Shown here: positions 1 to 20,458 of the stretch, in pieces | How the letters are laid out: every line of letters begins with the position of its first letter | Numbering within the stretch: the stretch's first letter is position 1 | Origin: Paenibacillus sp. BIHB 4019 | Lineage (GTDB): Bacteria > Bacillota > Bacilli > Paenibacillales > Paenibacillaceae | Direction of reading: 5' to 3' | Length of the DNA: 64,000 nucleotides | NCBI RefSeq assembly: GCF_002741035.1 | Contig: NZ_CP016808.1 | Span: 2,651,001-2,715,000 of the forward strand | Translations under genes and position numbers: made by a program | Notes under the pieces: model-generated | Told to the model about the DNA's origin: nothing | What the model saw: the letters and a program-made list of their open reading frames with translations, nothing else | The model's database searches: none

Positions 1-3000
1 AAGTCTATGTAAGTGCAACAGAAACAGGCAAACAAGAAAGCGACCGTTTGGAAGTAACGGTAGCAGCAGAAGCGAAAACAGCGAAAGTAGCGGCATCGGA
101 TGTAGTGGCCGTGAACAATGCAGGCAAAGCGGACACGTTGACCGTAACAGCCGCAGCTGGAACGATCGTAAAAGTGTACGATTTGGAAACAGCAGGCAAA
201 GTGCTTGGAACAGCGACGGTAGCGGCAGGTAAAACGGAAGCGATCGTATCGATTGCACAAATCGGGACAGCCGAAACAAAAGTGTATGTAAGTGCAACAG
301 AAACAGGCAAGCTGGAAAGTGACCGCCTGGAAGTAACGGTAGATGCAGAAGGCAAAACCGACAAATTAACGGCATCGGATGTAGTAGCGGTGAACAACGT
401 AGGCAAAGCCGATACGCTGACGATCACAGCCGCAGCTGGAACGATCGTAAAAGTGTACGATTTGGAAACAGCAGGCAAAGTGCTAGGAACAGCAACAGTA
501 GCAGCAGGTAAAACAGAAGCAGTTGTATCCATCACACAAATCGGCGCAGCTGAAACAAAAGTGTATGTAAGTGCAACAGAAACAGGCAAACAAGAAAGCG
601 ACCGTCTGGAAGTAACGGTAGCTGCAGAAGCGAAAACAGCGAAAGTAGCGGCATCGGATGTAGTGGCCGTGAACAATGCAGGCAAAGCGGACACGTTGAC
701 CGTAACAGCCGCAGCTGGAACGATCGTAAAAGTGTACGATTTGGAAACAGCGGGCAAAGTGCTTGGAACAGCGACGGTAGCGGCAGGTAAAACGGAAGCG
801 ATCGTATCGATTGCACAAATCGGTGCAGCCGAAACAAAAGTCTATGTAAGTGCAACAGAAACAGGCAAACTGGAAAGTGACCGCCTGGAAGTAACGGTAG
901 ATGCAGAAGGCAAAACCGACAAATTAACGGCATCGGATGTAGTAGCGGTGAACAACGTAGGCAAAGCCGATACGCTGACGATCACAGCCGCAGCTGGAAC
1001 GATCGTAAAAGTGTACGATTTGGAAACAGCAGGCAAGGTGCTGGCAACAGCAACAGTAGCGGCAGGTAAAACGGAAGCGATTGTATCGATTCCACAAATC
1101 GGTACAGCCGAAACAAAAGTCTATGTAAGTGCAACAGAAGCAGGCAAGCTGGAAAGCGACCGTCTGGAAGTAACGGTAGATGCAGAAGGCAAAACTGACA
1201 AATTAACGGCATCGGATGTAGTAACCGTGAACAACGTAGGCAAAGCCGATACGCTGACGATCACAGCCGCAGCTGGAACAATCGTAAAAGTGTACGATTT
1301 GGAAACAGCAGGCAAAGTGCTGGGAACAGCAACAGTAGCGGCAGGTAAAACGGAAGCAGTTGTATCCATCACGCAAATCGGCGCAGCCGAAACAAAAGTC
1401 TATGTAAGTGCAACAGAAACAGGCAAACAAGAAAGCGACCGTTTGGAAGTAACGGTAGCAGCAGAAGCGAAAACAGCGAAAGTGGTAGCAGCAGATGTAA
1501 CAGCAGTGAACAATGCTGGAAGTGCAGATACTATTACAGTAAAAGCCGCAGCTGGAACGATCGTAAAAGTGTACGATTTGGAAACAGCAGGCAAAGTGCT
1601 TGGAACAGCGACGGTAGCGGCAGGTAAAACGGAAGCGATCGTATCGATTGCACAAATCGGTGCAGCCGAAACAAAAGTGTATGTAAGTGCAACAGAAACA
1701 GGCAAACTGGAAAGTGACCGCCTGGAAGTAACCGTAGATGCAGAAGGCAAAACCGACAAATTAACGGCATCGGATGTAGTAGCGGTGAACAACGTAGGTA
1801 AAGCCGATACAGTGACCGTAACGGCAGCAGCTGGAACGATCGTAAAAGTGTACGATTTGGAAACAGCAGGCAAGGTGCTGGCAACAGCAACAGTAGCGGC
1901 AGGTAAAACGGAGGCGATTGTATCGATTCCACAAATCGGTACAGCCGAAACAAAAGTCTATGTAAGTGCAACGGCAACAGGCAAACAAGAAAGCGACCGT
2001 CTGGAAGTAACGGTAGATGCAGAAGGCAAAACCGACAAATTAACGGCATCGGATGTAGTAGCGGTGAACAACGTAGGCAAAGCCGATACGCTGACGATCA
2101 CAGCAGCAGCTGGAACAATCGTAAAAGTGTACGATTTGGAAACAGCAGGCAAAGTGCTGGGAACAGCAACAGTAGCGGCAGGTAAAACGGAAGCAGTTGT
2201 ATCCATCACGCAAATCGGCGCAGCCGAAACAAAAGTCTATGTAAGTGCAACAGAAACAGGCAAACAAGAAAGCGACCGTTTGGAAGTAACGGTAGCAGCA
2301 GAAGCGAAAACAGCGAAAGTGGTAGCAGCAGATGTAACAGCAGTGAACAATGCTGGAAGTGCAGATACTATTACAGTAAAAGCAGCAGCTGGAACGATTG
2401 TAAAAGTATACGATTTGGAAACAGCAGGCAAAGTGCTTGGAACAGCGACGGTAGCGGCAGGTAAAACGGAAGCGATCGTATCGATTGCACAAATCGGTGC
2501 AGCCGAAACAAAAGTGTATGTAAGTGCAACAGAAACAGGCAAACTGGAAAGTGACCGCCTGGAAGTAACCGTAGATGCAGAAGGCAAAACCGACAAATTA
2601 ACGGCATCGGATGTAGTAGCGGTGAACAACGTAGGTAAAGCCGATACAGTGACCGTAACGGCAGCAGCTGGAACGATCGTAAAAGTGTACGATTTGGAAA
2701 CAGCAGGCAAGGTGCTGGCAACAGCAACAGTAGCGGCAGGTAAAACGGAGGCGATTGTATCGATTCCACAAATCGGTACAGCCGAAACAAAAGTCTATGT
2801 AAGTGCAACGGCAACAGGCAAACAAGAAAGCGACCGTCTGGAAGTAACGGTAGCAGCAGAAGCGAAAACAGCGAAAGTGGTAGCAGCAGATGTAACAGCA
2901 GTGAACAATGCTGGAAGTGCAGATACTATTACAGTAAAAGCAGCAGCTGGAACGATTGTAAAAGTGTACGATTTGGAAACAGCAGGCAAAGTGCTTGGAA

Positions 3001-5102
3001 CAGCAACGGTAGCGGCAGGTAAAACGGAAGCGATCGTATCGATTGCACAAATCGGGACAGCCGAAACAAAAGTGTATGTAAGTGCAACAGAAACAGGCAA
3101 GCTGGAAAGTGACCGCCTGGAAGTAACGGTAGATGCAGAAGGCAAAACCGACAAATTAACGGCATCGGATGTAGTAGCGGTGAACAACGTAGGCAAAGCC
3201 GATACACTGACGATCACAGCCGCAGCTGGAACAGTCGTAAAAGTGTACGATTTGGAAACAGCAGGCAAAGTGCTAGGAACAGCAACAGTAGCAGCAGGTA
3301 AAACAGAAGCAGTTGTATCCATCACGCAAATCGGCGCAGCCGAAACAAAAGTGTATGTAAGTGCAACGGCAACAGGCAAACAAGAAAGCGACCGTCTGGA
3401 AGTAACCGTAGCAGCAGAAGCGAAAACAGCGAAAGTGGTAGCAGCAGATGTAACGGCAGTGAACAATGCTGGAAGTGCAGATACTATTACAGTAAAAGCA
3501 GCAGCTGGAACGATTGTAAAAGTGTACGATTTGGAAACAGCAGGCAAAGTGCTTGGAACAGCAACGGTAGCGGCAGGTAAAACGGAAGCGGTCGTATCCA
3601 TTGCCCAAGTTGGCACAGCCGAAACAAAAGTGTATGTAAGTGCAACAGAAACCGGTAAGCTGGAAAGCGACCGTCTGGAAGTAACGGTAGCTGCAGAAGG
3701 CAAAACCGACAAACTAACTGCCTCAGAAGTAGTAGCCGTAAACAACGTAGGTAAAGCAGATACGCTGACGATCACAGCTGCAGCTGGAACGATCGTAAAA
3801 GTGTACGATTTGGAGACAGCGGGCAAAGTGCTTGGAACAGCGACGGTAGCAGCAGGTAAAACAGAAGCAGTTGTATCCATCACACAAATCGGCGCAGCCG
3901 AAACAAAAGTGTATGTAAGTGCAACGGCAACAGGCAAACAAGAAAGCGACCGTCTGGAAGTAACCGTAGCAGCAGAAGCGAAAACAGCGAAAGTACTGGT
4001 AGCTGATGTAACGGCAGTGAACAATGCAGGCAGCGCAGATACCTTCACGGTAAAAGCAGCAGCTGGAACGATCGTAAAAGTGTACGATTTGGAAACAGCA
4101 GGCAAAGTATTGGGCACAGCAACAGTAGCAGCAGGTAAAACGGAAGCGGTTGTATCGATTGCTCAAGTGGGCACAGCTGAAACTAAAGTATATGTGAGTG
4201 CAACAGAAACCGGTAAGCTGGAAAGCGAACGCCAAGAAATCACACTAGCGGCAGAAGGTAAGACCGATAAAGTTGTAACAGCAAATATTACGGTAGCGAA
4301 CAATGTGGGTAAAGCAGATACGATTACAGTTCCTGCAGCAGTTGGTGCAGTTGTAAAAGTATATGATGCTGCTACAGCTGGTAAACTTTTAGGCTCTGCA
4401 ACGGTAGCTACTGGCAAAACAGAAGGAATCGTTTCTATCAGTCAATTAGGTGTAGATGCGACAAAAGTATATGTAACTGTAACGGAAGCTGGTAAACAGG
4501 AAAGTGAACGCGAGGAAGTGGCGGTAGCAGCAGAAGCTGTAACAACGGCTCCAGCAGAAAGTGCAATTACAATTGTAAATAATGCTGGCAAAGCAGATAC
4601 GATTACCGTTACAGATGTCGTTGCAGGTGATATCGTTAAAATCTTTAGAACGGGTACGACTACGGTTATCGGTTCTGCTACCATTGCAGCTGGTAAAACA
4701 GAAGCCACTATCTCGATTGCTCAATTGGGCGTGGATGCTTCCAGCGTAGATGTGACTATCACAAGCAAAGACAAACGCGAAAGCGCAAAAACGACAAAGT
4801 CGTATGATGCGGAAGCTGTGACAACTGCTCCAGATGCAAGTAAGATTACCATTACCAACAATGCTACAGGAACCAATGATACCATTGCGGTAAGCGGACT
4901 TACGGGCGGAGATGTTGTAAAAGTATATGCTGCAGGTACTACGACCGTAATTGGAACTTACACAGTTATCAATGGTGGATCAGAAGCAGTTGTTTCCATT
5001 AAACAATTGGGAGCAGCATCGGGGTCCGTTGATATTACGGTAACAAGCGTTGGTAAACGTGAAAGTGAAAAAACAACAAAATCGTACGATGCAGAAGCTT
5101 AA
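1..5102 (+). CDS. Giant tandem-repeat surface-type protein (5' end outside window)
   Basis: The reading frame is open from base 3, so the N-terminus lies outside the window; an apparent TTG start at 48 is just a Leu codon inside a repeat. About 1,699 residues are visible, all in modules of ~93 residues. Each module has a VNN-x-GKADT segment, a hydrophobic core around IVKVYDLETAGKVLG, then TATVAAGKTEA, VYVSAT and an ESDR-LEVTV junction, alternating beta-strand-like stretches typical of Ig-like or S-layer-associated repeats. There is no Cys, no LPXTG-type sorting signal and no SLH domain at the visible C-terminus, which ends in YDAEA; any signal peptide or anchor would be upstream. The last three modules (from about 4230) are divergent, the earlier 15 are almost identical. 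A strong terminator follows the stop. A cell-surface or secreted structural role is inferred; the exact family is not recognised. Confidence 0.8.
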   Translation, partial: VYVSATETGKQESDRLEVTVAAEAKTAKVAASDVVAVNNAGKADTLTVTAAAGTIVKVYDLETAGKVLGTATVAAGKTEAIVSIAQIGTAETKVYVSATETGKLESDRLEVTVDAEGKTDKLTASDVVAVNNVGKADTLTITAAAGTIVKVYDLETAGKVLGTATVAAGKTEAVVSITQIGAAETKVYVSATETGKQESDRLEVTVAAEAKTAKVAASDVVAVNNAGKADTLTVTAAAGTIVKVYDLETAGKVLGTATVAAGKTEAIVSIAQIGAAETKVYVSATETGKLESDRLEVTVDAEGKTDKLTASDVVAVNNVGKADTLTITAAAGTIVKVYDLETAGKVLATATVAAGKTEAIVSIPQIGTAETKVYVSATEAGKLESDRLEVTVDAEGKTDKLTASDVVTVNNVGKADTLTITAAAGTIVKVYDLETAGKVLGTATVAAGKTEAVVSITQIGAAETKVYVSATETGKQESDRLEVTVAAEAKTAKVVAADVTAVNNAGSADTITVKAAAGTIVKVYDLETAGKVLGTATVAAGKTEAIVSIAQIGAAETKVYVSATETGKLESDRLEVTVDAEGKTDKLTASDVVAVNNVGKADTVTVTAAAGTIVKVYDLETAGKVLATATVAAGKTEAIVSIPQIGTAETKVYVSATATGKQESDRLEVTVDAEGKTDKLTASDVVAVNNVGKADTLTITAAAGTIVKVYDLETAGKVLGTATVAAGKTEAVVSITQIGAAETKVYVSATETGKQESDRLEVTVAAEAKTAKVVAADVTAVNNAGSADTITVKAAAGTIVKVYDLETAGKVLGTATVAAGKTEAIVSIAQIGAAETKVYVSATETGKLESDRLEVTVDAEGKTDKLTASDVVAVNNVGKADTVTVTAAAGTIVKVYDLETAGKVLATATVAAGKTEAIVSIPQIGTAETKVYVSATATGKQESDRLEVTVAAEAKTAKVVAADVTAVNNAGSADTITVKAAAGTIVKVYDLETAGKVLGTATVAAGKTEAIVSIAQIGTAETKVYVSATETGKLESDRLEVTVDAEGKTDKLTASDVVAVNNVGKADTLTITAAAGTVVKVYDLETAGKVLGTATVAAGKTEAVVSITQIGAAETKVYVSATATGKQESDRLEVTVAAEAKTAKVVAADVTAVNNAGSADTITVKAAAGTIVKVYDLETAGKVLGTATVAAGKTEAVVSIAQVGTAETKVYVSATETGKLESDRLEVTVAAEGKTDKLTASEVVAVNNVGKADTLTITAAAGTIVKVYDLETAGKVLGTATVAAGKTEAVVSITQIGAAETKVYVSATATGKQESDRLEVTVAAEAKTAKVLVADVTAVNNAGSADTFTVKAAAGTIVKVYDLETAGKVLGTATVAAGKTEAVVSIAQVGTAETKVYVSATETGKLESERQEITLAAEGKTDKVVTANITVANNVGKADTITVPAAVGAVVKVYDAATAGKLLGSATVATGKTEGIVSISQLGVDATKVYVTVTEAGKQESEREEVAVAAEAVTTAPAESAITIVNNAGKADTITVTDVVAGDIVKIFRTGTTTVIGSATIAAGKTEATISIAQLGVDASSVDVTITSKDKRESAKTTKSYDAEAVTTAPDASKITITNNATGTNDTIAVSGLTGGDVVKVYAAGTTTVIGTYTVINGGSEAVVSIKQLGAASGSVDITVTSVGKRESEKTTKSYDAEA
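21..5048 (+). repeat. Coding tandem repeat, 279-bp unit, 18 copies
   Basis: The marker GAAACAGGC (or close variants) recurs at 21, 300, 579, 858, 1137, 1416, 1695, 1974, 2253, 2532, 2811, 3090, 3369, 3648, 3927, 4206, 4485 and 4764: an exact 279-bp step (93 codons). The last step, to about 5046, is 282 bp. Modules fall into two main types, one beginning LEVTVAAEAKTAKV and one beginning LEVTVDAEGKTDKL. These mostly alternate, giving a 558-bp higher-order period, with local B-A-B' triplets. Identity extends to third codon positions in the first 15 units, which points to recent homogenisation by recombination. Confidence 0.95.
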
Positions 5103-5120
5103 GTAATAAAAAGCTAAAGA

Positions 5121-5154
5121 AAAAACACCTTCCTGAAAATGGAAGGTGTTTTTT
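5121..5154 (+). terminator. Intrinsic terminator after the repeat protein
   Basis: AAAACACCTTCC and GGAAGGTGTTTT form a 12-bp stem around a 7-base loop and run into a T stretch. It lies 19 bases after the TAA stop of the repeat protein and separates it from the nonulosonate operon. Confidence 0.92.
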
Positions 5155-5186
5155 CACGTTTATAAAGGGTTCATGTTATTATGAAC

Positions 5187-5214
5187 TACATATTGAGTCA
5201 TTTATAACCGATAA
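5187..5214 (+). promoter_or_regulatory. Sigma-D-like promoter candidate upstream of legB
   Basis: ACCGATAA (5207-5214) is one base from the Bacillus sigma-D -10 consensus GCCGATAA. TACA (5187-5190) stands 16 bases upstream, near the TAAA -35 element. No good sigma-A promoter was found in this 170-bp gap. Weak hairpins at 5169-5186 (GTTCAT/ATGAAC) and 5230-5243 (AAATCG/CGATTT) flank it. Match by eye only. Confidence 0.4.
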
Positions 5215-5272: not shown

Positions 5273-6280
5273 ATGAGAAAATACGGAAAAGTACTAGTGA
5301 CTGGAGCAGATGGATTTATTGGCTCTCATTTAACAGAGGCGCTTGTTCGTCGTGGATACGATGTGCGAGCATTTACATTGTATAATTCGTTTAACACTTG
5401 GGGCTGGCTGGATGAATGTGCAGATGATGTTCGTGGGCAATTTGAGGTTTTTGCAGGGGATATCCGTGATGCATACGGAGTGCGTGAATCCATGAAAGAT
5501 TGCGATGCGGTACTGCATTTGGCTGCACTTATTGCCATACCCTATTCGTATCATTCTCCGGACACATACGTCGATACCAACATAAAAGGAACATTGAATG
5601 TATTGCAAGCTGCACGTGAATTAAAGCTTTCTAAAGTCATACATACGTCTACAAGCGAGGTTTATGGGACAGCGCGCTTTGTTCCTATAACGGAAGAGCA
5701 TCCACTGACTGGACAATCTCCATACTCCGCTACAAAAATTGGTGCCGATCAAATGGCGATGTCATTTTATCGTTCCTTTGAAACGCCAGTTGGCATTATC
5801 AGGCCATTTAATACATACGGACCACGTCAATCTGCAAGGGCAGTTATCCCGACCATCATTACACAAATTGCAGCAGGTCAAGAGAAAATTAAGTTAGGCA
5901 CTATTCATCCTACAAGGGATTTTAACTATGTTGCCGATACAGTGAACGGCTTTATCGCAATGCTAGAGTCGGATAATTGCATTGGAGAAGAGATTAATAT
6001 TGGAAGCAACTATGAAATATCTATTGGCGACACGGCTAAACTCATCGGTGAAGTGATGAATAAGGACATTGAAATCGTAAGTGACGAAATACGTTTGCGT
6101 CCAGAAAAAAGCGAAGTGGAACGCCTATGGGCGGATAACTCGAAAGCAAAAAGGTTATTACAATGGCAGCCTGAATATGCCGGATTAGAGGGATTTAGGC
6201 GGGGTCTTGATGAAACGATTGAGTGGTTTACAAAACCAGGCGCCTTAAGCAAATACAAAGCCGGACAATACAATGTATAG
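5273..6280 (+). CDS. legB: LegB-type NAD-dependent nucleotide-sugar 4,6-dehydratase
   Basis: 335-residue extended short-chain dehydrogenase. The N-terminus has the NAD-binding VTGADGFIGSHL loop (about residues 9-20), STSEVYG follows near residue 125, and the catalytic YSATK (YxxxK) lies near 150. In the legionaminic pathway LegB removes water from a GDP- or UDP-linked GlcNAc to give the 4-keto-6-deoxy sugar, the first committed step. AGGAGG at 5262-5267 sets the ATG. It is the first gene of a nine-gene operon whose next gene is the matching aminotransferase, which favours LegB over the many other epimerase/dehydratases of this fold. Nucleotide specificity cannot be read from sequence; the GDP form is inferred from ptmE in the same operon. 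Confidence 0.85.
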   Translation: MRKYGKVLVTGADGFIGSHLTEALVRRGYDVRAFTLYNSFNTWGWLDECADDVRGQFEVFAGDIRDAYGVRESMKDCDAVLHLAALIAIPYSYHSPDTYVDTNIKGTLNVLQAARELKLSKVIHTSTSEVYGTARFVPITEEHPLTGQSPYSATKIGADQMAMSFYRSFETPVGIIRPFNTYGPRQSARAVIPTIITQIAAGQEKIKLGTIHPTRDFNYVADTVNGFIAMLESDNCIGEEINIGSNYEISIGDTAKLIGEVMNKDIEIVSDEIRLRPEKSEVERLWADNSKAKRLLQWQPEYAGLEGFRRGLDETIEWFTKPGALSKYKAGQYNV

Positions 6281-6303
6281 TTGACATTATGGAGGCTTTA
6301 GTT

Positions 6304-7506
6304 ATGAAAACAGAAAGTTTAGCCAAGCAAATAGTAGAATCTTTAAAGCAGGCATTGCCCAATCGTCAGTCTTTTACGGCGCTGCACGAGCCTGTTTTTC
6401 AGGGAAATGAATGGGACTATGTTAAAGAGTGTTTGGATACCGGGTGGGTATCTTCAGTTGGGAAATTTGTAGATCGCTTTGAATACGATATGGCTGCTTA
6501 TACCGATTCGCCTTATGCTATAGCTGTTGTAAATGGTACAGCGGCGCTGCACATTAGCTTGCTGCTTGCAGGCGTTGAGAAAGACGATGAGGTCCTTATA
6601 CCCTCTCTAACTTTTGTGGCAACAGCAAATGCTATATCTTATTGCCAAGCAATACCTCATTTGGTTGATGTTGCGAGAGATACACTTGGCTTAGATCCTA
6701 TTAAACTGGCTGAATATTTACATGAAATAGCGGAAACCCGGTCGGATGGTTTTACATATAACCGAAAGACGCAAAGAAGAATTGCGGCTGTTGTACCCAT
6801 GCATGCTTTTGGACATCCTGTAGATCTGGATGCATTAATGGGAGTATGCGAACGTTACCGTCTGGTTCTAGTAGAGGATGCTGCCGAATCACTCGGTTCT
6901 TACTATAGGGGTAAGCATACGGGCACTTACGGCAAATTGGCTGCTTTAAGCTTTAATGGCAATAAGATCATTACGACAGGCGGGGGCGGAATCATTTTGA
7001 CTGCTGACGAGGGCCTTGCCAAGCAGGCGAAGCATCTTACAACAACGGCAAAAGTTCCGCATCGGTGGGCTTTTCAGCATGACCAAGTGGGTTACAACTA
7101 CCGTCTTCCTAATTTAAATGCAGCGTTGGGCTGTGCCCAGCTTGAGAAGCTGCCACAAATCTTACACAAAAAAAGACAGCTGGCCGAGCGTTACAAAGAC
7201 GTTTTTTCACAGCTGGAGGGTGCGGCTTTTGTCGAAGAAAAGGAAGAAGGAACTTGCAACTACTGGCTTAATACATTATTGCTGAATCAGCCTGATGAGC
7301 TCATACGCGATCAGATTTTAGAGCTTACTAACGATGCAGGATTTATGACACGCCCCATTTGGACTCCGATGCATCGGCTCCCTATGTATAGTCATTGCCC
7401 TCAAATGGATATGACAGTTACTGAAGAGTTGGAGCATCGTGTTATTAACATTCCAAGCGGTTCTTCTTTGTATGAGGATATAGTGAGCAATGAGGTAACC
7501 CTATGA
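6304..7506 (+). CDS. legC: LegC-type PLP-dependent aminotransferase
   Basis: 400 residues, DegT/DnrJ/EryC1/StrS family. It should aminate C4 of the keto-sugar made by LegB. Visible landmarks are NGTAALHISL (PLP phosphate region), SLTFVATANA, VEDAAESLGS (Asp pairing with the pyridine nitrogen) and SFNGNKIITTGGGG, which carries the Schiff-base Lys. The frame opens further upstream, but ATG 6304 has GGAGG at 6291-6295 eight bases away and is preferred over ATG 6289. It starts 23 bases after legB and overlaps the next gene by 4 bases (ATGA), so translation is probably coupled. The C-terminal region is typical of the family; nothing is missing. Confidence 0.87.
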   Translation: MKTESLAKQIVESLKQALPNRQSFTALHEPVFQGNEWDYVKECLDTGWVSSVGKFVDRFEYDMAAYTDSPYAIAVVNGTAALHISLLLAGVEKDDEVLIPSLTFVATANAISYCQAIPHLVDVARDTLGLDPIKLAEYLHEIAETRSDGFTYNRKTQRRIAAVVPMHAFGHPVDLDALMGVCERYRLVLVEDAAESLGSYYRGKHTGTYGKLAALSFNGNKIITTGGGGIILTADEGLAKQAKHLTTTAKVPHRWAFQHDQVGYNYRLPNLNAALGCAQLEKLPQILHKKRQLAERYKDVFSQLEGAAFVEEKEEGTCNYWLNTLLLNQPDELIRDQILELTNDAGFMTRPIWTPMHRLPMYSHCPQMDMTVTEELEHRVINIPSGSSLYEDIVSNEVTL

Positions 7507-8675
7507 GGAACATATGCGTAGTTACCGGTTCTCGGGCTGATTATGGGCTTTTGTATCCTTTGTTAAAGGAAGTTAAAGCAGATAATGAACTGGTTTTAAA
7601 AATCGCCGTGACGGGCATGCATCTTTCTCAAGAGTACGGATTTACTTTTCAAGAAATTGAAGATGATGGATTTGTCATTGATGAAAAGGTAGATATGCTG
7701 CTTGCAAGTGATACGCAGGCAGGAATCACCAAATCAATGGGAATGGGCTTGATTGGGTTTGCAGATGCCTATCAACGACTTAAGCCTGACATGGTAGTAG
7801 TGTTGGGTGATCGCTATGAAATCATGATTGCTGTACAAGCAGCCATGATGGCTAATATTCCAATTGCCCATTTGCATGGAGGCGAAAGTACCGAAGGAAT
7901 GGTTGATGAAGCGATCAGGCATTCGATATCAAAAATGGCGCATTTACACTTTGCATCAACAGAAAAATATCGACAGCGCATTATTCAACTCGGGGAAAAT
8001 CCCAATAGAGTATTTAATGTAGGTGCCATCGGTTTAGATAATATTCGTAATTTGGATTTACTAACCAAGGAAGAGTTTGAGCAATCTATTAACTTTAGCT
8101 TGTGCGCAGTTACCTTTTTAGTTACTTATCACCCATTAACGCTAGCCCATCGGAGCTCGGAGGAACTGACGAGCGAGCTGCTTGCAGCGTTAGACCAATT
8201 TCCGCAGGCTGGTATCATTTTCACGAAACCAAACTCGGATGCGGATGGACGAATTATTTCAAAAATGATAGATGATTATGTGAAATTGAATGAGAAACGA
8301 TGTGTTTCCTTTGATTCACTCGGAAAGCTGAGATATCTAAGCGCTTTACAGCATGTGGATGTTGTAATTGGCAATTCATCCAGTGGCATCATCGAAGTGC
8401 CTATGTTCAAAAAACCAACGGTCGATATTGGAATTCGGCAGCAGGGCAGGATAAAGGGAACGACGGTCATTCAGACAGGTGAAACGAGGGAGCATATTAT
8501 TCAGGCGATTCATCAGGCAATGGATCGAACATTCCTCCAATCATTTGTGGAAGGCTCCTCTTCTTTGTATGGAAACGGTGGAACTGCGGCTAAAATTAAG
8601 GAACAACTAAAGCAGATAGACTTAACCGGGATTTTGAATAAAAGGTTTTATGATATAGAGGGTTCAAAGGATTAA
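7503..8675 (+). CDS. legG: LegG/NeuC-type hydrolysing nucleotide-sugar 2-epimerase
   Basis: 390 residues of the UDP-GlcNAc 2-epimerase fold (GT-B-like). The start TGSRADYGLLYPLL is the hallmark of the hydrolysing NeuC branch. GDRYEIM (~101-107), HLHGGE (~121-126) and the late GNSSSGIIE motif (~287-295) are further family landmarks. The enzyme inverts C2 and releases the nucleotide, giving the free 2,4-diacetamido-2,4,6-trideoxymannose used by the synthase encoded next. The ATG overlaps the legC stop by ATGA. The context with LegB/LegC and PtmE favours LegG over a sialic-acid NeuC. Confidence 0.87.
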   Translation: MRNICVVTGSRADYGLLYPLLKEVKADNELVLKIAVTGMHLSQEYGFTFQEIEDDGFVIDEKVDMLLASDTQAGITKSMGMGLIGFADAYQRLKPDMVVVLGDRYEIMIAVQAAMMANIPIAHLHGGESTEGMVDEAIRHSISKMAHLHFASTEKYRQRIIQLGENPNRVFNVGAIGLDNIRNLDLLTKEEFEQSINFSLCAVTFLVTYHPLTLAHRSSEELTSELLAALDQFPQAGIIFTKPNSDADGRIISKMIDDYVKLNEKRCVSFDSLGKLRYLSALQHVDVVIGNSSSGIIEVPMFKKPTVDIGIRQQGRIKGTTVIQTGETREHIIQAIHQAMDRTFLQSFVEGSSSLYGNGGTAAKIKEQLKQIDLTGILNKRFYDIEGSKD

Positions 8676-8687
8676 GGAGGCGAGCTA

Positions 8688-9758
8688 ATGAAAGTATTCA
8701 TCATAGCTGAGGCGGGTGTTAATCATAACGGCTCATTGGAGCTTGCAAAGCAGCTCGTTCATGCAGCCGCAAATGCTGGTGCGGATGCAGTGAAATTTCA
8801 AACCTTTCAAGCCTCTCAACTAGTCAGCAAACATGCTTCAAAAGCAGATTACCAGAAAAAAACGACAGCTTCTGATGAATCGCAGTTGGAAATGATAAGA
8901 AAGCTGGAGCTATCTGCAGCAGATCACGAAGAACTACAGAATGAATGTCAAAATGCGGGTATTGCGTTTATGTCGACGCCGTTCGATTTTCCAAGTCTAA
9001 CTTTATTAACAGAAAAAATGAATCTTTCGATACTCAAGATATCGTCAGGAGATTTAACTAATCTACCTCTGCTCTATAAGGCTGGGCAAAGTGGCAGGGA
9101 TATTATTTTATCGTCAGGAATATCTACTTTAGGGGAAATTGAAGAAGCGCTTGGCGCATTAGCCCATGCCTATTTATCCTTGGATGAGTTCCCATCTGAA
9201 TCCGCTTTTAGAGCAGCCTACTTCTCTGATGCTGGCCAGACTGTATTGAAACAAAAGGTTTCGTTGCTGCATTGTACGACAGATTATCCGACCTCATATG
9301 AAGATGTTCACCTAAATAAGATGCTGACTCTGAGGCAGGCTTTTGGCTTGAAAACCGGCTATTCCGATCATACAATTGGAAACGAGGTTTCAGTAGCAGC
9401 AGTGGCACTGGGAGCACAAATTATCGAGAAGCATTTTACATTGGATAAGCAAATGGAAGGGCCTGATCATCTGGCTTCGATGGACCCGGGTGAGTTAGTG
9501 AGTTTGGTGAAGCAAATTCGAAATGTCGAGCAGTCGATGGGTATTTCCTCTAAGATCCCAGCGGTTTCCGAATTACGTAACGCTGGACCTGCTCGTAAAA
9601 GCATTGTAGCTGCTGGGCCAATTAAAAAAGGAGAGATTTTGCAAGAATTTCATCTTACGTTGAAACGGCCGGGAACGGGCATTTCCCCTGCAAAATACTG
9701 GAGTATTTTAGGGAAAGCAGCTGCTAAAGATTACGAAACCGATGATCTAATAGAATGA
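8688..9758 (+). CDS. legI: LegI/NeuB-type nonulosonic acid synthase
   Basis: 356 residues. It condenses the 6-deoxy-diacetamido-mannose with phosphoenolpyruvate to form the nine-carbon sugar acid (legionaminic acid in the predicted pathway). The NeuB TIM barrel starts with IIAEAGVNHNGS and contains ADAVKFQTF (about residues 33-41), STPFDF, KISSGD and GYSDHT. A C-terminal antifreeze-like SAF domain covers about residues 296-356 (RKSIVAAGPIKKGE, LKRPGTGISP), as in complete NeuB enzymes. AAGGAGG at 8674-8680 overlaps the preceding stop and sits 7 bases before ATG. Sequence alone does not separate sialic, legionaminic and pseudaminic synthases; the neighbours indicate the legionaminic branch. Confidence 0.88.
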   Translation: MKVFIIAEAGVNHNGSLELAKQLVHAAANAGADAVKFQTFQASQLVSKHASKADYQKKTTASDESQLEMIRKLELSAADHEELQNECQNAGIAFMSTPFDFPSLTLLTEKMNLSILKISSGDLTNLPLLYKAGQSGRDIILSSGISTLGEIEEALGALAHAYLSLDEFPSESAFRAAYFSDAGQTVLKQKVSLLHCTTDYPTSYEDVHLNKMLTLRQAFGLKTGYSDHTIGNEVSVAAVALGAQIIEKHFTLDKQMEGPDHLASMDPGELVSLVKQIRNVEQSMGISSKIPAVSELRNAGPARKSIVAAGPIKKGEILQEFHLTLKRPGTGISPAKYWSILGKAAAKDYETDDLIE

Positions 9759-10390
9759 AGAGCAAATCGTGCATTATTATAGGTGGCGGCGGTCATGCCA
9801 AAGTATGTGCAGACCTATTGCTTCGGCAAGAGTACAAGATTTTGGGTTATGTTGATGTGAGCGATAAGGGTCTGCTGCTTGACACCATTCCATATTTGGG
9901 TAACGACTCAGTCGTACTTTCTTTCAATCCATCTGAGGTTGCTCTTGTTAACGGAGTAGGGAAGCTGGGAAGCTCTTTAGTAAGAAGCGAGCTGTATTTA
10001 AATTTCACCTCACAAAATTATGTATTTGAAACAATCATTCATGATTCTGCTATAGTCTCCTCTTTCGTCCAAATTGAACCTGGCGCACAAATTATGGCTG
10101 GAGCCATCGTTCAAGCAGGCAGTTATCTAGGCGAAAATGCCATTATTAATACACGGGGAGTATTGGAACATGACTGCAGAGTAGGAGCGCATGTGCATAT
10201 ATCTCCTGGAGCCATTCTTTGTGGAAACGTTAGTATTGGCGAACATACACATATCGGAGCTGGAGCAACTGTGATTCAAGGTATGTCCGTCGGGAGGCAT
10301 GCCATAGTAGGAGCAGGTGCATTAGTTCGCAAGCCCGTATTGAATCAAACTACTGTATATGGTGTTCCGGCAGAGGAGGCTCTAAGATGA
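9755..10390 (+). CDS. NeuD/PglD-type sugar acetyltransferase
   Basis: 211 residues. A Rossmann-like N-terminus (IIIGGGGHAKVCADLL) is followed by a left-handed beta-helix of hexapeptide repeats (about residues 95-195, e.g. IMAGAIVQAG, HISPGAILCG, IGAGATVIQG). This is the NeuD/PglD architecture. PglD-type enzymes N-acetylate the 4-amino group of nucleotide-linked amino sugars with acetyl-CoA, which is the step needed between LegC and LegG here. O-acetylation of the finished sugar, as in some NeuD proteins, is the alternative. It overlaps the synthase gene and the next gene by ATGA, so it belongs to the operon. Confidence 0.8.
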   Translation: MKSKSCIIIGGGGHAKVCADLLLRQEYKILGYVDVSDKGLLLDTIPYLGNDSVVLSFNPSEVALVNGVGKLGSSLVRSELYLNFTSQNYVFETIIHDSAIVSSFVQIEPGAQIMAGAIVQAGSYLGENAIINTRGVLEHDCRVGAHVHISPGAILCGNVSIGEHTHIGAGATVIQGMSVGRHAIVGAGALVRKPVLNQTTVYGVPAEEALR

Positions 10391-11436
10391 AACCTACTGA
10401 TCAACTATTTATTTCGCCCTATTCCTCTATACTTGAGGCCATAAAAGTCATTGATCGCGGATCGGTTCAAATCACACTTGTCGTTGATGAAGATCAGCGG
10501 CTGTTAGGCACAGTAACAGACGGGGATATCCGCAGAGGGATATTGAGAAATATCGGCTTAAATGATGAAGTTCGACAGGTTATGAATACACAGCCCGTTA
10601 CTTCACGCGAGGAAGACAGCAAAGAATACATTCTTTCGAGTATGCGCCATCATAATTTGAAGCAAATACCTGTGCTGGATCGTATGGGACGAGTAGTTCG
10701 TTTGCATTTGCTTGAGGAAATAATTAAACCGGAACGCTGCGATAACTGGGTAGTACTGATGGCAGGCGGGCTTGGTACGAGACTAGGAGAATTAACGAGA
10801 GATTGCCCTAAGCCTTTGCTCCTAGTGGGAAATAAACCTATTTTGGAAGTCATCCTTGAAAATTTTATTGCAAATGGTTTTCATAGATTTATGATATCCG
10901 TTAATTATAAAGCAGAAATGATTATGGCTCATTTTGAAGACGGCTCCAAATGGGGGGTCGAAATTGAATATATAAGGGAAGATAAGCGTCTGGGTACAGC
11001 AGGTGCTTTGAGTCTGCTCCCATTTGTTCCAGAAGAGCCGCTGCTTATTATGAATGGAGATTTATTGACTAAGGTTAATTTCCGTCAGCTGCTTGATTAT
11101 CATAATGATTCCAAAGGGCCAGCTACTATGTGTGTTAGGGAGTATGAGTATCAGGTTCCATATGGTGTTGTTAAGGTTGAAAATAATAGGCTTCAAAGTA
11201 TTGAAGAGAAACCGCTGCAGCGCTATTTTATTAGTGGAGGGATTTATGTCATTTCCCCCGAGGTTTTGTCTTACATACCTAGTGACACTTTTTATGATAT
11301 GCCAACGCTGTTTGAAAAACTTATAGAAGAAGGTGCCTCTACCTCGGTGTTCCCGATTAGAGAATACTGGCTGGATATTGGCAGAATGGATGATTTCAAC
11401 CGAGCAAACGGAGAATATTCGGAGGTATTCAATTGA
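10387..11436 (+). CDS. ptmE: PtmE-like CBS-nucleotidyltransferase (GDP-amino-sugar forming)
   Basis: 349 residues. Two N-terminal CBS motifs (about residues 5-115; TVTDGDIRRGIL is characteristic) are fused to a sugar-phosphate nucleotidyltransferase domain that begins MAGGLGTRLGE near 127 with PKPLL after it. This domain order matches Campylobacter jejuni PtmE, which makes the GDP-activated glucosamine that feeds the GDP-linked legionaminic acid route. The CBS pair may sense a nucleotide. ATGA overlap with the acetyltransferase gene. GTP specificity is inferred from family and context. Confidence 0.82.
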   Translation: MKPTDQLFISPYSSILEAIKVIDRGSVQITLVVDEDQRLLGTVTDGDIRRGILRNIGLNDEVRQVMNTQPVTSREEDSKEYILSSMRHHNLKQIPVLDRMGRVVRLHLLEEIIKPERCDNWVVLMAGGLGTRLGELTRDCPKPLLLVGNKPILEVILENFIANGFHRFMISVNYKAEMIMAHFEDGSKWGVEIEYIREDKRLGTAGALSLLPFVPEEPLLIMNGDLLTKVNFRQLLDYHNDSKGPATMCVREYEYQVPYGVVKVENNRLQSIEEKPLQRYFISGGIYVISPEVLSYIPSDTFYDMPTLFEKLIEEGASTSVFPIREYWLDIGRMDDFNRANGEYSEVFN

Positions 11437-12347
11437 GGGCTTTAGTCGTAGGGTACGGGTCTATTGGCGAACGTCATGCCAGAATTTTGAATAAATTGCT
11501 AGTTGAGACGGCTGTTGTCAGCAGCAGAGCAATCGATTTTCCGGTTACTTTTCAGACGTTGGAACAAGCCGTAGCAGAATTTCAGCCCCATTATATTGTT
11601 ATTGCCAATAAAACGTCAGATCATTATACGTCATTATCTATATTGGCAAGGCTTAAATGGCAGGGCAAGGTGCTTGTGGAAAAGCCGTTGTTTCATAAGA
11701 ATAAAGCATGGGACGAGAAATTGGGTTTACAAGTTTATGTAGCATACAATCTCCGGTTTCATCCTATTCTTCAGCGTTTAAAGACTCTGCTGGCGCAGGA
11801 GAAGATTTTATCTGTTGCTGCATATGCGGGACAATACTTGCCAGATTGGCGACCGCAACGGGATTACCGGCTTAGCTATTCCTCTAATAAAGAGGAGGGC
11901 GGCGGTGTACTCAGAGATTTGAGCCATGAGCTCGATTATTTGATCTGGTTGTTTGGAACATGGTCAAGGCTAACTGGCCTTGGCGGGCATTACAGCACTT
12001 TAGCAACGACAGGTGATGATATTTGTGGTGTCATGATGGAGACCCAAAAAACGCCTCTTGTGACGCTTCAACTGAATTATATGGATAGGCCTGGCCGCCG
12101 AGAAATAGTGGTTGTGACGGATCGTCATACTTATAAAGCAGATCTAACGAAAGCATCGCTTGAAACAGATGGGCAGGTGGAGCATTTTCAGGTAGAGAGA
12201 GACTTGACTTATCTTGCACAACATATGGCGATCTTGAATGATACGGTTGAACATGTATGTTCCTATAGTGAAGGTCTGCAAACCGTTCAAATGATTAATC
12301 GTATCGAGCAGGCTATCGTCAGTAAGGAGTGGGTTTATAATGAGTAG
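11433..12347 (+). CDS. ptmF: PtmF-like Gfo/Idh/MocA oxidoreductase
   Basis: 304 residues starting with TTG, which overlaps the previous stop as TTGA; GGAGGT at 11421-11426 supports it. The N-terminus has a Rossmann motif (VVGYGSIGERHARIL) and the family's EKPLF segment near residue 90. A Gfo/Idh C-terminal domain with GGGVLRDLSHELDYL follows (about 151-165). C. jejuni places ptmF between ptmE and ptmB exactly as here; PtmF is assigned to early supply of the amino sugar, but the precise reaction is not settled from sequence. The stop lies 8 bases into the next gene. Confidence 0.78.
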   Translation: MRALVVGYGSIGERHARILNKLLVETAVVSSRAIDFPVTFQTLEQAVAEFQPHYIVIANKTSDHYTSLSILARLKWQGKVLVEKPLFHKNKAWDEKLGLQVYVAYNLRFHPILQRLKTLLAQEKILSVAAYAGQYLPDWRPQRDYRLSYSSNKEEGGGVLRDLSHELDYLIWLFGTWSRLTGLGGHYSTLATTGDDICGVMMETQKTPLVTLQLNYMDRPGRREIVVVTDRHTYKADLTKASLETDGQVEHFQVERDLTYLAQHMAILNDTVEHVCSYSEGLQTVQMINRIEQAIVSKEWVYNE

Positions 12348-13050
12348 GCTGTGCACCATTTGTGCAAGAGGCGGCTCCAAGGGAGTAGAGAATAAAAATA
12401 TTCGAGACATGCATGGAAAGCCGCTGATCGCTTATAGCATTGAGGTGGCCAAGCGATCGGGATTATTTGAATATGTGGCTGTGAGCAGCGACTCTGAAGA
12501 TATTTTGCGGACCGCACTACAATGGGGAGCAGATTTTGTCATTAATCGTCCATTAGAAATGGCACTGGATACATCGGCTAAAATACCTGCTATCCAGCAT
12601 TGCGTTTTACAGGTGGAGGCTAAATTGAGTGTCGTGTTTCCGACGATTGTTGATCTAGATGCAACCTCGCCGCTTAGGACGGTTGATGATTTGATTCAAG
12701 CCGTTCAATTATTTGAGCAGCAAGATGCATCTAATCTTATCACAGGCATGCCTGCGAGGCGTTCGCCTTATTTTAATTTGGTAGAGCAAAATGAAAAGGG
12801 GTTTGTGGCGTTGTCCAAGCGGTTATCCAAGCCTGTTGTAAGAAGGCAGGACGCGCCTAAATGCTTCGACATGAATGCATCTATATATATTTGGCAAAGA
12901 GAGAAGCTTATTCATGAACCGGCGGTTTTTTATGAAGATACATTATTATATGAAATGCCGGAGGAGCGCTCGATAGATATAGACAGTCCATTGGATTGGA
13001 CTATAGTGGAATTATTAATGGATGCTAGAAAAAAAGGAGGCCCGTTATGA
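12340..13050 (+). CDS. ptmB: LegF/PtmB-type CMP-nonulosonate cytidylyltransferase
   Basis: 236 residues, NeuA-like GT-A nucleotidyltransferase. CTICARGGSKGVENKNI at residues 4-20 is the CTP-binding loop of CMP-acylneuraminate synthetases, and VDLDATSPLR and the late YEMPEERSIDIDSPLDW segment are also typical. It activates the nine-carbon acid as its CMP derivative, the donor for glycosyltransfer. There is no extra hydrolase domain of the kind seen in some NeuA fusions. AAGGAG lies at 12324-12329; the gene overlaps ptmF by 8 bases and ptmA by ATGA. Confidence 0.87.
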   Translation: MSRLCTICARGGSKGVENKNIRDMHGKPLIAYSIEVAKRSGLFEYVAVSSDSEDILRTALQWGADFVINRPLEMALDTSAKIPAIQHCVLQVEAKLSVVFPTIVDLDATSPLRTVDDLIQAVQLFEQQDASNLITGMPARRSPYFNLVEQNEKGFVALSKRLSKPVVRRQDAPKCFDMNASIYIWQREKLIHEPAVFYEDTLLYEMPEERSIDIDSPLDWTIVELLMDARKKGGPL

Positions 13051-13859
13051 TTGAAGCCTTTAGTCTAAAAGGAAAAACCGCATTTGTAACCGGAGCTATG
13101 GGGATTATTGGACAAAAAGTATGCGCGGGCCTCGCAGAAGCGGGAGCTAATATCGCAGCCATCGATTTGGATCAAGCGGCTTTGGGCAATTTTGCCGAGC
13201 AGCTTCAAGCAAAATATGCTGTAAAGGCCATTGGGATAGCGGGAGATGTATCGAACCCTGAACAGGTAGTTTCAATGGTCGATCATGCTGTAGAAGCTTT
13301 AGGGGCCATACATATTTTGCATAACAATGCTGCAAGCAAATCCTCCAATCTAGAGGAGTTTTTTGCTCCTTTCGAAGAATATTCGCTTGAACAGTGGCGC
13401 GAAGTCATGTCTGTCAATTTGGACGGGATGTTCCTAGTAGCAAAAGAAGTAGGCAAGCAGATGATCAAGCAAGGCAGTGGCGGAGCTATTATTCAAACGG
13501 CTTCTATATATGGCATTATGGCGCCTGATCATCGCATCTATGAAGGTTCATTTTATATGGGATTGCCGATTACTTCCCCAGCCGTTTATGCGGCCTCCAA
13601 GGGTGGAGTTGTCGCATTAACGCGATATTTGGCTACATATTGGTCGAAACATGGGATTAGGGTGAACACGATTACACCTGGAGGCGTGAATAGCGGGCAA
13701 AATGATGAATTTGTGCAAAACTACTCTAATCGCATACCGCTGGGACGGATGGCGGAAGCGGATGAAATGGTCGGAGCAGTTCTTTATTTGGCCTCGGATG
13801 CTTCGCGTTATGTTACGGGACATAACCTAATTGTAGATGGCGGACTGAATGCGTGGTAG
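13047..13859 (+). CDS. ptmA: PtmA-like short-chain dehydrogenase
   Basis: 270-residue classical SDR: TGAMGIIG cofactor loop (~13-20), NNAAS near 90, catalytic YAASKGG (YxxxK, ~178-184) and a C-terminal VDGG. AAAGGAGG at 13033-13040 precedes the ATG, which overlaps the ptmB stop. In C. jejuni ptmA also follows ptmB and is linked to legionaminic acid formation; its substrate is uncertain. Last gene of the operon; no clear terminator was found in the 133 bases before csp. Confidence 0.8.
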   Translation: MIEAFSLKGKTAFVTGAMGIIGQKVCAGLAEAGANIAAIDLDQAALGNFAEQLQAKYAVKAIGIAGDVSNPEQVVSMVDHAVEALGAIHILHNNAASKSSNLEEFFAPFEEYSLEQWREVMSVNLDGMFLVAKEVGKQMIKQGSGGAIIQTASIYGIMAPDHRIYEGSFYMGLPITSPAVYAASKGGVVALTRYLATYWSKHGIRVNTITPGGVNSGQNDEFVQNYSNRIPLGRMAEADEMVGAVLYLASDASRYVTGHNLIVDGGLNAW

Positions 13860-13899: not shown

Positions 13900-13929
13900 T
13901 TGACAATTCTAATAACGCGGTGTTATAGT
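13900..13929 (+). promoter_or_regulatory. Sigma-A promoter candidate for csp
   Basis: TTGACA (13900-13905), an 18-base spacer and TATAGT (13924-13929). It gives a leader of about 55 bases before the csp start, which fits the leaders of cold-shock genes. Confidence 0.65.
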
Positions 13930-13992
13930 CAAATTGTGGGCCACATGAGTAAGGTGTTTCACAGTATTTGAAGATGAAGGGACTGTTTATGC

Positions 13993-14190
13993 ATGCAAGG
14001 TAAAGTTAAATGGTTTAACGCGGAGAAGGGTTATGGATTTATCGAAACTGATCAAGGCGGCGACGTATTCGTTCACTTCTCGGCTATTCAAACAGAAGGT
14101 TTCAAAACTCTTGACGAAGGCCAAGCGGTTGAATTTGACATCGTAGAAGGCGCACGCGGTCCACAAGCTGCTAACGTCACTAAATTGTAA
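13993..14190 (+). CDS. Cold-shock protein, CspA/CspB family
   Basis: 65 residues, a complete single cold-shock domain (OB fold). The RNA-binding RNP1 motif appears as [16 protein letters not shown] (3-18) and RNP2 as DVFVHFS (24-30). Such proteins bind single-stranded RNA and DNA and keep mRNA unfolded. AAGGGA at 13977-13982 is the likely ribosome binding site. It is flanked by its own promoter and terminator, so it is monocistronic and independent of the ptm operon. Confidence 0.95.
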
Positions 14191-15485: not shown

Positions 15486-17990
15486 ATGCTCGGATTAGTG
15501 AAAAAAATATTTGGTGATGCGAACGAGCGCGAGGTTAAGCGCCTCACGCGTAAAGTAGAAGAAATCAATGCACTGGAGTCCACCATCTCGGCTTTGTCCG
15601 ATGAGGAGCTCGCAGCTAAAACTGTACAATTCAGAGCTCGCCTTGCTAAAGGAGAGACGATTGATCAAATATTGCCAGAAGCTTTCGCAGTTACGCGTGA
15701 AGCTTCGAAGCGTACGCTCGGCATGCGTCACTTCGATGTGCAGCTGATGGGCGGTATCGTTCTCCATGAGGGCAAAATCGCTGAGATGAGAACCGGTGAA
15801 GGTAAAACGCTCGTAGCGACACTGCCTGTATATCTGAACGCGCTGCTTGAGAAAGGCGTACATGTCGTAACGGTCAATGATTATTTGGCTTCTCGTGACA
15901 GCCAGCTGATGGCTCAGCTTTACAATTTCCTCGGCATGACGGTCGGCTGCAACCTGAACGGCTTGTCGCATGAGGAGAAGCAAAGCGCCTATGCTTGCGA
16001 TATTACGTACGGTACGAACAATGAGTTTGGCTTCGATTACTTGCGCGACAACATGGTTCTTTACAAAGAACAAATGGTTCAGCGCCCGCTTTATTTCTCA
16101 ATCATTGATGAAGTTGACTCCATCCTTGTCGATGAGGCGCGTACACCGCTTATTATTTCGGGACAAGCTGCCAAGTCGACTGAGCTTTATTATTCGGCAG
16201 ACCGCTTCCTGAGCCGTTTGAAGGTGGAAGAGGATTACACGATTGATGTGAAGCTGCGCAATGTCATGCTGACGGAAGAAGGCGTGGAGAAGGCGGAGAA
16301 GGCGTTCCACATTGAAAATCTTTTTGACCATGAAAATGTGACGCTCAATCACCATATCCAACAGGCGCTCAAAGCCAATGTCATTATGAAGCGCGATGTC
16401 GATTATGTCGTTCAAGATGACGAAGTCATCATCGTCGATGAATTTACTGGACGCCTAATGTCCGGTCGCCGTTACAGCGATGGCTTGCATCAAGCGATTG
16501 AAGCGAAGGAGCAGCTCAAAGTACAAAATGAGAGCATGACCTTGGCTACGATTACGTTCCAGAACTATTTCCGGATGTATCGCAAGCTTGCGGGCATGAC
16601 GGGTACGGCGAAGACGGAGGAAGAAGAATTCAAGCGGATTTACGGCTTGGACGTTATTCAAGTTCCGACGAACCGCTCCATGATTCGTAAAGACCTTCAA
16701 GATGTCGTTTATAAATCGGAAAAAGGCAAGTTTAATGCTGTTGTGGAAGAGATCGTAGCTCGCCACGCGAACAAACAGCCTGTACTGGTCGGTACGATTT
16801 CCATTGAAAATTCCGAGCGTCTGGCAGAAATGCTTAAACGCCGCGGTGTTGCCCATAAAGTACTGAATGCGAAGTTCCATGCGGAAGAGGCTGAAATTAT
16901 TTCGCGTGCCGGTCAAGAGGGCTCTGTTACTATTGCTACTAACATGGCGGGACGCGGTACCGATATTATGCTCGGTGAAGGGGTAGCTGATTTTGGCGGC
17001 CTTCATATTATTGGTACGGAGCGCCATGAGAGCCGCCGGATCGATAACCAGCTGCGTGGTCGTGCCGGACGTCAAGGCGATCCGGGCTCATCCCAGTTTT
17101 ATTTGTCGCTGGAAGATGAACTGATGCGCCGTTTTGGCTCGGATAACATTATGGCCATGATGGATCGTCTCGGTCTGGAAGAGGATCAACCGATCGAAAG
17201 CCGGATGATTACCCGTGCAGTAGAATCGGCTCAGAAGCGTGTAGAAGGAAACAACTTCGATCTTCGTAAAGTCGTTCTTCAATATGATGATGTCATGAAC
17301 CAGCAGCGTGAAGTAATTTACAAGCAGCGTCTGGATGTGCTCACTTCCGATAATATCCGTGAAATCGTCATGGAAATGATTAAAGCGGTCATTGATCGCA
17401 CGGTTAAAGCTCACTGTACGGAGGATATTCCGGAAGAGTGGGATTTGGAAACCATTATCGACTTCGTAGATGCGAACCTTCTGAATGAAGGCACCGTGAC
17501 GAGAGACGATATTTGGGGCAAGGAAATTGAGGAAATTACCGAATTTATTTATGGCAAAGTCGTTGCTTATTATGACGAGCGTGAAGCAGAGCTTGGCGAA
17601 ACGACGATGCGTGAATTCGAGAAGGTCGTTTCACTTCGCGCAGTTGACAGCAAATGGATGGATCACATCGATGCAATGGATCAGCTGCGTCAAGGTATCC
17701 ACCTTCGGGCATACGGCGGTACGGATCCGCTTCGCGAGTACCAATTTGAGGGCTTTGAGATGTTCAAGGCGATGATTGATACGATCCAAGAGGAAGTTGC
17801 CAAATACATTATGAAGTCGCGCGTAGAAAGCAACCTGGAGCGCCAAGAGGTAGCTCAAGGCCAGACGACGACGAACAGCCCAGGCGAAAGCCAGGAAAAA
17901 CGTCCGGCGAAGCGTTTGGACCGGGTTGGCCGCAATGATGATTGCCCATGCGGCAGCGGCAAGAAATACAAGCAGTGCCACGGTAAATAA
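15486..17990 (+). CDS. secA: Preprotein translocase ATPase SecA
   Basis: 834 residues, complete. SecA drives secretory proteins through SecYEG by ATP hydrolysis. Walker A is MRTGEGKTL (~100-108), the DEAD-type motif is [16 protein letters not shown] (~204-219), and [10 protein letters not shown] and the arginine-finger region [12 protein letters not shown] lie in the second nucleotide-binding domain. The C-terminus [15 protein letters not shown] is the zinc-binding tail that contacts SecB or lipids. AAAGGGGAA lies just before the ATG. It is followed by prfB as in B. subtilis. Confidence 0.97.
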
Positions 17991-18154
17991 GGTGCTGTGA
18001 TCGGATAGGCAAGGCTTAACGCGCCAGTGTGCGGAGCAATGCGGCAAAAGCTGCAGCGCTTCGCAGCAGGCGCGTTTATGCCATCAGGCAGCAGCAGAGC
18101 AAGAAAAAGCTGGGCAACCAGACAAGATGAGAAATTTGAGGTGAAACGTACGCT

Positions 18155-19262: not shown

Positions 19263-19376
19263 ACGGCAGGCTATTATAGCGCTCCTAGCAGTTAGCTACC
19301 GCATCTGGCAAATGCGGTTATAGGAAATAGAATATGGATGAATACGCATGGTTCAAGCCATATTGACGTAAGCTAA

Positions 19377-19418: not shown

Positions 19419-19463
19419 TGAGCGCTTATAGGGATGAATTTATGAACTTGGGTGGGATTCGAG

Positions 19464-20387: not shown

Positions 20388-20458
20388 GAATAGCGGCAAT
20401 GATACCAAACAACGGGTTGTACGAGCGTGCTAGACACAAAAATACATCCATTCGCTCA

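Follow-up and report, generated by a model that had tools for sequence, protein, structure and literature searches.

An operon for a legionaminic acid-type sugar in a Gram-positive bacterium raises the questions of which sugar is made, from which nucleotide-linked precursor, and for which acceptor. The operon considered here lies in a 64,000-nucleotide stretch (the window) of Paenibacillus sp. BIHB 4019 (NZ_CP016808.1, positions 2,651,001 to 2,715,000), whose 7.25-Mb genome is a single contig. Nine intact open reading frames (ORFs), all on the + strand between 5273 and 13859, encode in order LegB, LegC, NeuC/LegG, NeuB, NeuD, PtmE, PtmF, a cytidine monophosphate (CMP)-synthetase, and a short-chain dehydrogenase (SDR). 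The genes, their order, and their tight coupling, as set out in the original prediction, are all borne out by the ORF list and the junctions. We consider it likely that the operon supplies the sugar donor within a flagellin O-glycosylation island, that its route runs through guanosine diphosphate (GDP)-linked intermediates, and that PtmF and the SDR act late, possibly yielding an epimer of legionaminic acid (Leg). New here is the observation that the oxidoreductase pair tracks the type of CMP-synthetase and not PtmE.

The oxidoreductase pair tracks the CMP-synthetase type

LegB passes the cut-off of its model (TIGR04180) in 35 of 245 genomes of the family, with four more at 426–467 bits and the next score at 188. 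Pieces of up to 20 kb (one of 11 kb) were fetched around legB in 38 of these 39 genomes, that is, all but the window's own. The loci in which a synthetase was found, 36 with the window and G186 included, were typed; L069, L071, and L076 were left out, no synthetase having been seen in them. Three synthetase types occur. The PtmB type is found at 14 loci, 13 of which (the window included) carry PtmF and the SDR; L039 was retained in the count as the exception. The LegF type, resembling the synthetases of E. coli O161 and NT1F31, is found at 16 loci, with PtmF or the SDR at none. The CGR type (CGR-x-GSKG start) is found at six, each having two Gfo/Idh genes and no match to the SDR. An oxidoreductase pair is thus present at 19 of 20 loci with non-LegF types and at none of the 16 LegF-type loci (Fisher p 2e-9, the loci being related and not independent), while PtmE is present at all 36.

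In a tree of 40 synthetases, a branch with support of 97/96 separates the LegF set from the other two; the PtmB set has its own support of 80/87 and contains the window synthetase along with C. coli PtmB. Swaps of the block are seen between related loci. L056 shares a core 75–87% identical with L058 and L067, with a synthetase only 32% identical and the pair absent in the former and present in the latter two, and the window shares a core 56–84% identical with L041 and L060 of the same genus, with synthetases 36–37% identical. In a sample of 398 genomes from the phylum, PtmF and an SDR adjoin all four PtmB-type synthetases scoring above 365 bits (our own included; the next score is 232), the SDR of one of the four, G430, being of an in-between kind.

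Other end blocks were also seen. The CGR-type block, in which a synthetase and two Gfo/Idh genes replace PtmF and the SDR, occurs in L043, L045, L050, L051, L057, L064, and L101; the L101 synthetase is 39% identical to C. coli PtmB (start of the L101 protein not checked). In G186 (L109 2906–5669), the PtmB-type synthetase and the SDR are separated by two ORFs that by inspection look like oxidoreductases and by one further ORF. At two other Bacillota loci (L104 8714–10626 and L105 7635–9480), a Gfo/Idh gene stands beside one for an SDR 40–43% identical to that of the window, and a NeuB-like gene (33%) lies near the pair in L104. The Gfo/Idh–SDR pair may serve other nonulosonates too.

Predicted route and product

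PtmE would load glucosamine-1-phosphate, or its N-acetylated form, from GlmM onto GTP. LegB, LegC, NeuD, and LegG would convert GDP-N-acetylglucosamine (GDP-GlcNAc) to 2,4-diacetamido-trideoxy-mannose, NeuB would add pyruvate, forming a nonulosonate of the legionaminic type, PtmB would activate this sugar with CTP, and the neighbouring Maf would transfer it, ahead of export, to Ser/Thr of the short flagellin. This core would not require PtmF or the SDR, both of which would act late, alongside the synthetase. Their simplest role would be to oxidise a hydroxyl carbon (C8 or C4) and then re-reduce it. In its ring form, a 5,7-diamino-tetradeoxy nonulosonate has free secondary hydroxyls at C4 and C8 only, so that two late oxidoreductases would fit inversion there.

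As LegB, PtmE, and PtmB are of the Campylobacter type, the route is most likely GDP-linked. LegG is 43% identical to its C. coli counterpart, and the identities of the other three are given in Table 1. C. coli LegB (reached through L085) itself scores 467 bits on TIGR04180, just under the cut-off of 475. BLAST returned no match between the window LegB and the dehydratases of comparable E. coli operons, and the O108 dehydratase did not match TIGR04180 at 1e-30. C. jejuni LegB takes GDP-GlcNAc (PMC7439481), and Leg synthesis in T. forsythia begins at GDP-GlcNAc (PMC6388019; papers are cited here and below for individual passages). The pathway is complete, as originally claimed, only when the housekeeping enzymes GlmM and GlmU are counted; the genes for both, which the route would borrow, are present in the genome.

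The ninth gene occupies the position of ptmA. The NCBI curated model for PtmA (NF050062, FlagModPtmA) gives C. coli PtmA 501 bits against a cut-off of 350 and is not among the 25 best models of the window SDR, the 25th of which scores 138 bits. On NF006619 the window SDR reaches 194 bits (cut-off 255) and the O108 SDR 343 bits; the window protein thus passes neither curated model. It shares 27% identity with C. coli PtmA, which is nearer to the O108 SDR (37%), and 74 families match it with an E value of 1e-30 or below. Ser153, Tyr181, Lys185, and a glycine-rich TGxxGxxG stretch are conserved in alignments. The original description of the operon as the plain C. jejuni gene set is therefore not supported as it was worded; the GDP route proposed with it is favoured by the LegB, PtmE, and PtmB families.

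The window PtmF has an ordinary Gfo/Idh fold in an AlphaFold2 model (predicted local distance difference test score 94.8). It has EKP and SHExD positions in common with C. coli PtmF, for which family there is no curated model, and its best named match is from Paenibacillus algorifonticola (90%). For PtmE, no curated model was passed among the 25 best listed. The NeuD-type protein passes TIGR03570, in keeping with its predicted place at the N-acetylation (LegH) step, which it likewise holds in Plesiomonas (PMC4481668); its best PDB match is 4ea7, a perosamine N-acetyltransferase.

CMP-legionaminic acid or a close isomer, as first proposed, is a fair description of the product, and the real question is which isomer. 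A pseudaminic acid (Pse) or neuraminic product is considered unlikely: the PseB model scores 70 bits on LegB and the PseC model 225 on LegC, far under their cut-offs of 408 and 424, and the PseI model scores 255 bits on NeuB, under its cut-off of 340.

The E. coli O108 antigen is said to contain 8-epilegionaminic acid, and that of O161 reportedly contains a legionaminic acid derivative. The pair is present in the O108 locus and absent from the stretch read of O161, and the window product may therefore be an epimer, an assignment we make tentatively. The V. fischeri O-antigen holds 8-epi-Leg (PMC7940393), and a table lists homologues of PtmE, PtmF, the synthetase, and PtmA for this species (PMC4481668). 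In A. baumannii, an 8-epi form is assigned to the ela genes, with a putative oxidoreductase atop the Leg genes, and epaA-epaB (encoding a cytidylyltransferase-reductase and an SDR) turn Pse into its 8-epimer, 8-ePse, by nuclear magnetic resonance (PMC9676051, PMC12053666). We infer from the missing lgaG that ela has its own synthetase. It is conceivable, though short of probable, that ptmF-ptmB-SDR is an exchangeable cassette that determines, within the Paenibacillus family, which isomer of the flagellar nonulosonate is made: an epimer where it is present and legionaminic acid where it is absent (LegF type). The 8-epi form would be the first candidate, followed by a 4-epi or a 7/8 form.

Flagellar setting and alternative readings

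Upstream of the operon run flgK, flgL, fliW, csrA, flagellin, flaG, fliD, fliS, maf, and a repeat-protein gene (L003, partly outside the window), the flagellar genes and maf lying beyond the window edge; a cold-shock gene, hpf, and secA follow downstream. The flagellin (255 residues) matches PF00669 and PF00700, and Maf (747 residues) exceeds the cut-offs of PF01973 (131 bits) and PF20157 (32 bits). Pfam was applied to flagellin, FliS, and Maf; the other neighbours were named by inspection and from the gene order of B. subtilis. Maf stands beside flagellin genes and a nonulosonate operon, as in a Maf-type flagellin glycosylation island. Flagellin_N matches the genome twice, once at the flgL-like gene. 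In a PF03102 search, the operon NeuB is the sole nonulosonate synthase found in the genome, because the second match (33 bits, L002) reads by inspection as a 3-deoxy-D-arabino-heptulosonate 7-phosphate (DAHP) synthase. Given this setting and the sole synthase, the sugar most likely decorates flagellin, with the operon supplying the donor. The genome has two PF01973 matches; the second Maf-like gene (611 residues) is far from the flagellar island (L006, G000:C1:4506269-4506793, − strand).

Several observations weigh against parts of this reading. The product may instead be plain legionaminic acid, with PtmF and the SDR helping to supply the hexosamine precursor as in the Campylobacter scheme, which we regard as quite possible. 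In the tree, the window and C. coli synthetases fall together with modest support, and the Campylobacter enzyme is the nearest to the window PtmB among studied synthetases. The E-F-B-A order is shared with C. coli, and Campylobacter, which has ptmF and ptmA, is said (McNally, 2007) to make legionaminic acid derivatives. A published account counts ptmA among the first, GDP-GlcNAc steps (PMC4481668). The association of pair and synthetase also has its irregularities: L039 has a PtmB-type synthetase without the pair, with no such SDR in its genome at 1e-60, and the E. coli O108 and S30 synthetases, though accompanied by the pair, fall on the LegF side of the tree as a set of their own. The acetylation enzyme varies, NeuD being matched in only 23 of the 38 relatives. 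Against precursor supply, PtmE, which would be the enzyme supplied, is found at all typed loci, whereas the pair occurs with two synthetase types only. E. coli O161 and NT1F31 have PtmE-like genes and neither PtmF nor the SDR in the stretch read, and the window SDR fails the curated PtmA model. Our caution over the epimer is due to the legionaminic acid of Campylobacter with ptmA and ptmF, the likeness of PtmA to the O108 SDR, and the failure of the window SDR on both models.

A route through uridine diphosphate (UDP)-linked sugars, like that of Bacillus subtilis sps, appears very improbable. Relatives of LegG (best PDB match 5zlr, a GDP/UDP-N,N'-diacetylbacillosamine 2-epimerase) carry both nucleotides in their name and hence give no ruling, and B. 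subtilis was concluded to build Leg from UDP-linked precursors (PMC7439481). The window LegB, however, belongs with Campylobacter LegB and the TIGR04180 family, and PtmE, present throughout the typed loci, would be idle if GlmU supplied UDP-GlcNAc. It is also improbable that the sugar goes to another surface structure, such as the giant repeat protein or a wall polymer. A gene for a 2076-residue repeat protein lies directly upstream of the operon, and BLAST detected no counterpart of the window Maf in the pieces fetched for 11 of the 38 relatives, although one of them (L066) gave a Maf match in another comparison. Against this acceptor, Maf and flagellin genes adjoin here, a Maf match is near in the other 27 relatives, a single nonulosonate synthase was found, and Maf enzymes use CMP-nonulosonates (PMC11339370).

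The giant gene has its 3' part in window 1–5102 (L003 11873–18103), between maf and legB. It contains ~17.8 tandem copies of a 279-base unit, and its product looks secreted. Kin of this piece are found before legB in L044, a near-identical relative, and beyond hpf in L061. Directly after the operon, at window 13900–14190, comes an ORF that by inspection resembles a cold-shock gene and has a near-consensus promoter (11/12).

Gene organization and precedents

Genes overlap at six of the eight junctions, by 4 bases at five of them and by 8 at the other, in agreement with the predicted ATGA and TTGA overlaps joining most genes. ATGA overlaps are at 7503–7506 (legC/legG), 9755–9758, 10387–10390, and 13047–13050 (ptmB/SDR), a TTGA overlap is at 11433–11436, and the 8-base overlap is at 12340–12347 (ptmF/ptmB). 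The legG-neuB gap is 12 bases, and the legB-legC gap is 23 bases if legC starts at ATG 6304, a candidate start picked for its preceding GGAGG (the ORF list starts at 6223, and the model scan was from 6301). A sigma-D promoter for legB is not claimed, as the site scores only 10/12, a value that was also attained in 83 of 2000 shuffles of the intergenic stretch (mononucleotide shuffling); hag has a sigma-D site scoring 12/12 (L003 5488). The G+C content of the operon is 43.5%, as compared with 51.6% in the flank at 15486–24982, which at most suggests arrival from elsewhere.

Table 1. Features of the operon and of the gap before legB (window coordinates).
Feature	Position	Strand	Evidence
Terminator-like hairpin, giant repeat gene/legB gap	5119..5155	.	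15 pairs; scored on − strand
Weak sigma-D-like promoter	5187..5214	+	TACA-16-ACCGATAA, 10/12; no weight placed on site
LegB-type NAD-dependent 4,6-dehydratase	5273..6280	+	TIGR04180 537 bits, cut-off 475; 54% to C. coli LegB
LegC-type pyridoxal phosphate (PLP) aminotransferase	6304..7506	+	TIGR04181 546 bits, cut-off 420
NeuC/LegG hydrolysing 2-epimerase	7503..8675	+	TIGR03568 470 bits, cut-off 236
NeuB-type nonulosonate synthase	8688..9758	+	TIGR03569 469 bits, cut-off 400
NeuD/PglD-type N-acetyltransferase (LegH role)	9755..10390	+	TIGR03570 209 bits, cut-off 161
PtmE-type CBS + nucleotidyltransferase	10387..11436	+	PF00571 twice, PF00483; 39% to C. coli PtmE
PtmF-type Gfo/Idh/MocA oxidoreductase	11433..12347	+	PF01408, PF22725; 32% to C. 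coli PtmF
PtmB-type CMP-nonulosonate synthetase	12340..13050	+	PF02348 (CTP_transf_3); 50% to C. coli PtmB
SDR, PtmA position	13047..13859	+	PF13561 (adh_short_C2) 179 bits

The gene order has precedents, and the operon is a further case of a known pathway type. The identical nine-gene order is found in E. coli OkiPb01688 with O108 wzx/wzy (L083), on a plasmid of Rhizobium sp. WL3 (L089 3977–12519), in Cohnella cholangitidis (L084, where the fetched piece cuts LegB short), and in G331 (L100), from another family of the phylum, where Maf follows the operon. On this sequence comparison, the order is beyond chance, since it recurs in other genomes. The same order, legB-C-G-I-H(NeuD)-ptmE-ptmF-legF-ptmA, is given for Plesiomonas shigelloides (PMC4481668, Table 5). 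On the Rhizobium plasmid, an N-acetyl sugar amidotransferase gene follows the nine.

The Campylobacter leg/ptm system shares the LegB, LegC, LegG, NeuB, and PtmB families and apparently those of PtmE and PtmF, and Maf-like ORFs adjoin the C. coli genes (L085). Unlike it, the window operon has a NeuD-type acetyltransferase inside and legB-legC joined to the rest, whereas the C. coli pair neighbours another NeuB-like gene (L092 piece); its SDR also differs, as described above. Plesiomonas, likened here by a table, is Gram-negative and differs in having a LegB of 395 residues (335 here) and an extra small acetyltransferase; its flagellin glycan has been seen by mass spectrometry, and mutants lose flagella (PMC4481668). 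E. coli O108 has the Leg core with Gfo/Idh, synthetase, and SDR in one order but a dehydratase of another family, with PtmF, synthetase, and SDR 28, 38, and 26% identical to those of the window, and its sugar is in the O-antigen, not on flagellin. E. coli O161 (L077) shares LegC, NeuB, NeuC, and PtmE; its LegF-type synthetase is 31% identical to the window PtmB.

In A. baumannii, lgaABCDEF with elaABC and the prophage genes epaA-epaB follow the same logic of a Leg or Pse core plus oxidoreductases. EpaB shares PF13561 with the window SDR, and EpaA, as likened by description, combines a cytidylyltransferase domain with an aldo-keto reductase instead of Gfo/Idh (PMC9676051, PMC12053666). An A. 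baumannii record considered as the ela locus (L088, chromosome-sized, in a plasmid collection) was dropped, its dehydratase, aminotransferase, and synthase being only 24–33% identical. Among Gram-positives, Clostridium butyricum is predicted to have C. jejuni-type Leg genes and Maf in a flagellar locus, with a LegH that is not an orthologue and with PtmF and PtmA unnamed in the section concerned, and putative Leg genes are named for C. botulinum (PMC13317340, section 15). The novelty first seen in a Gram-positive host is therefore weak. Such an operon in Paenibacillus is not described in the relevant passages of PMC13317340, PMC5109656, and PMC11339370.

The operon thus appears to be a further example, from a Gram-positive family, of a flagellin-glycosylation pathway that is already known. 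Its usefulness lies in the natural series of relatives with similar cores and swapped end blocks, in which the unsettled roles of PtmF and the dehydrogenase can be tested directly. The isomer of such a bacterial sialic-acid mimic would then be predictable from the CMP-synthetase type, and, if the end block is indeed a stereochemical cassette, the role of PtmF and PtmA in precursor supply would need revising.

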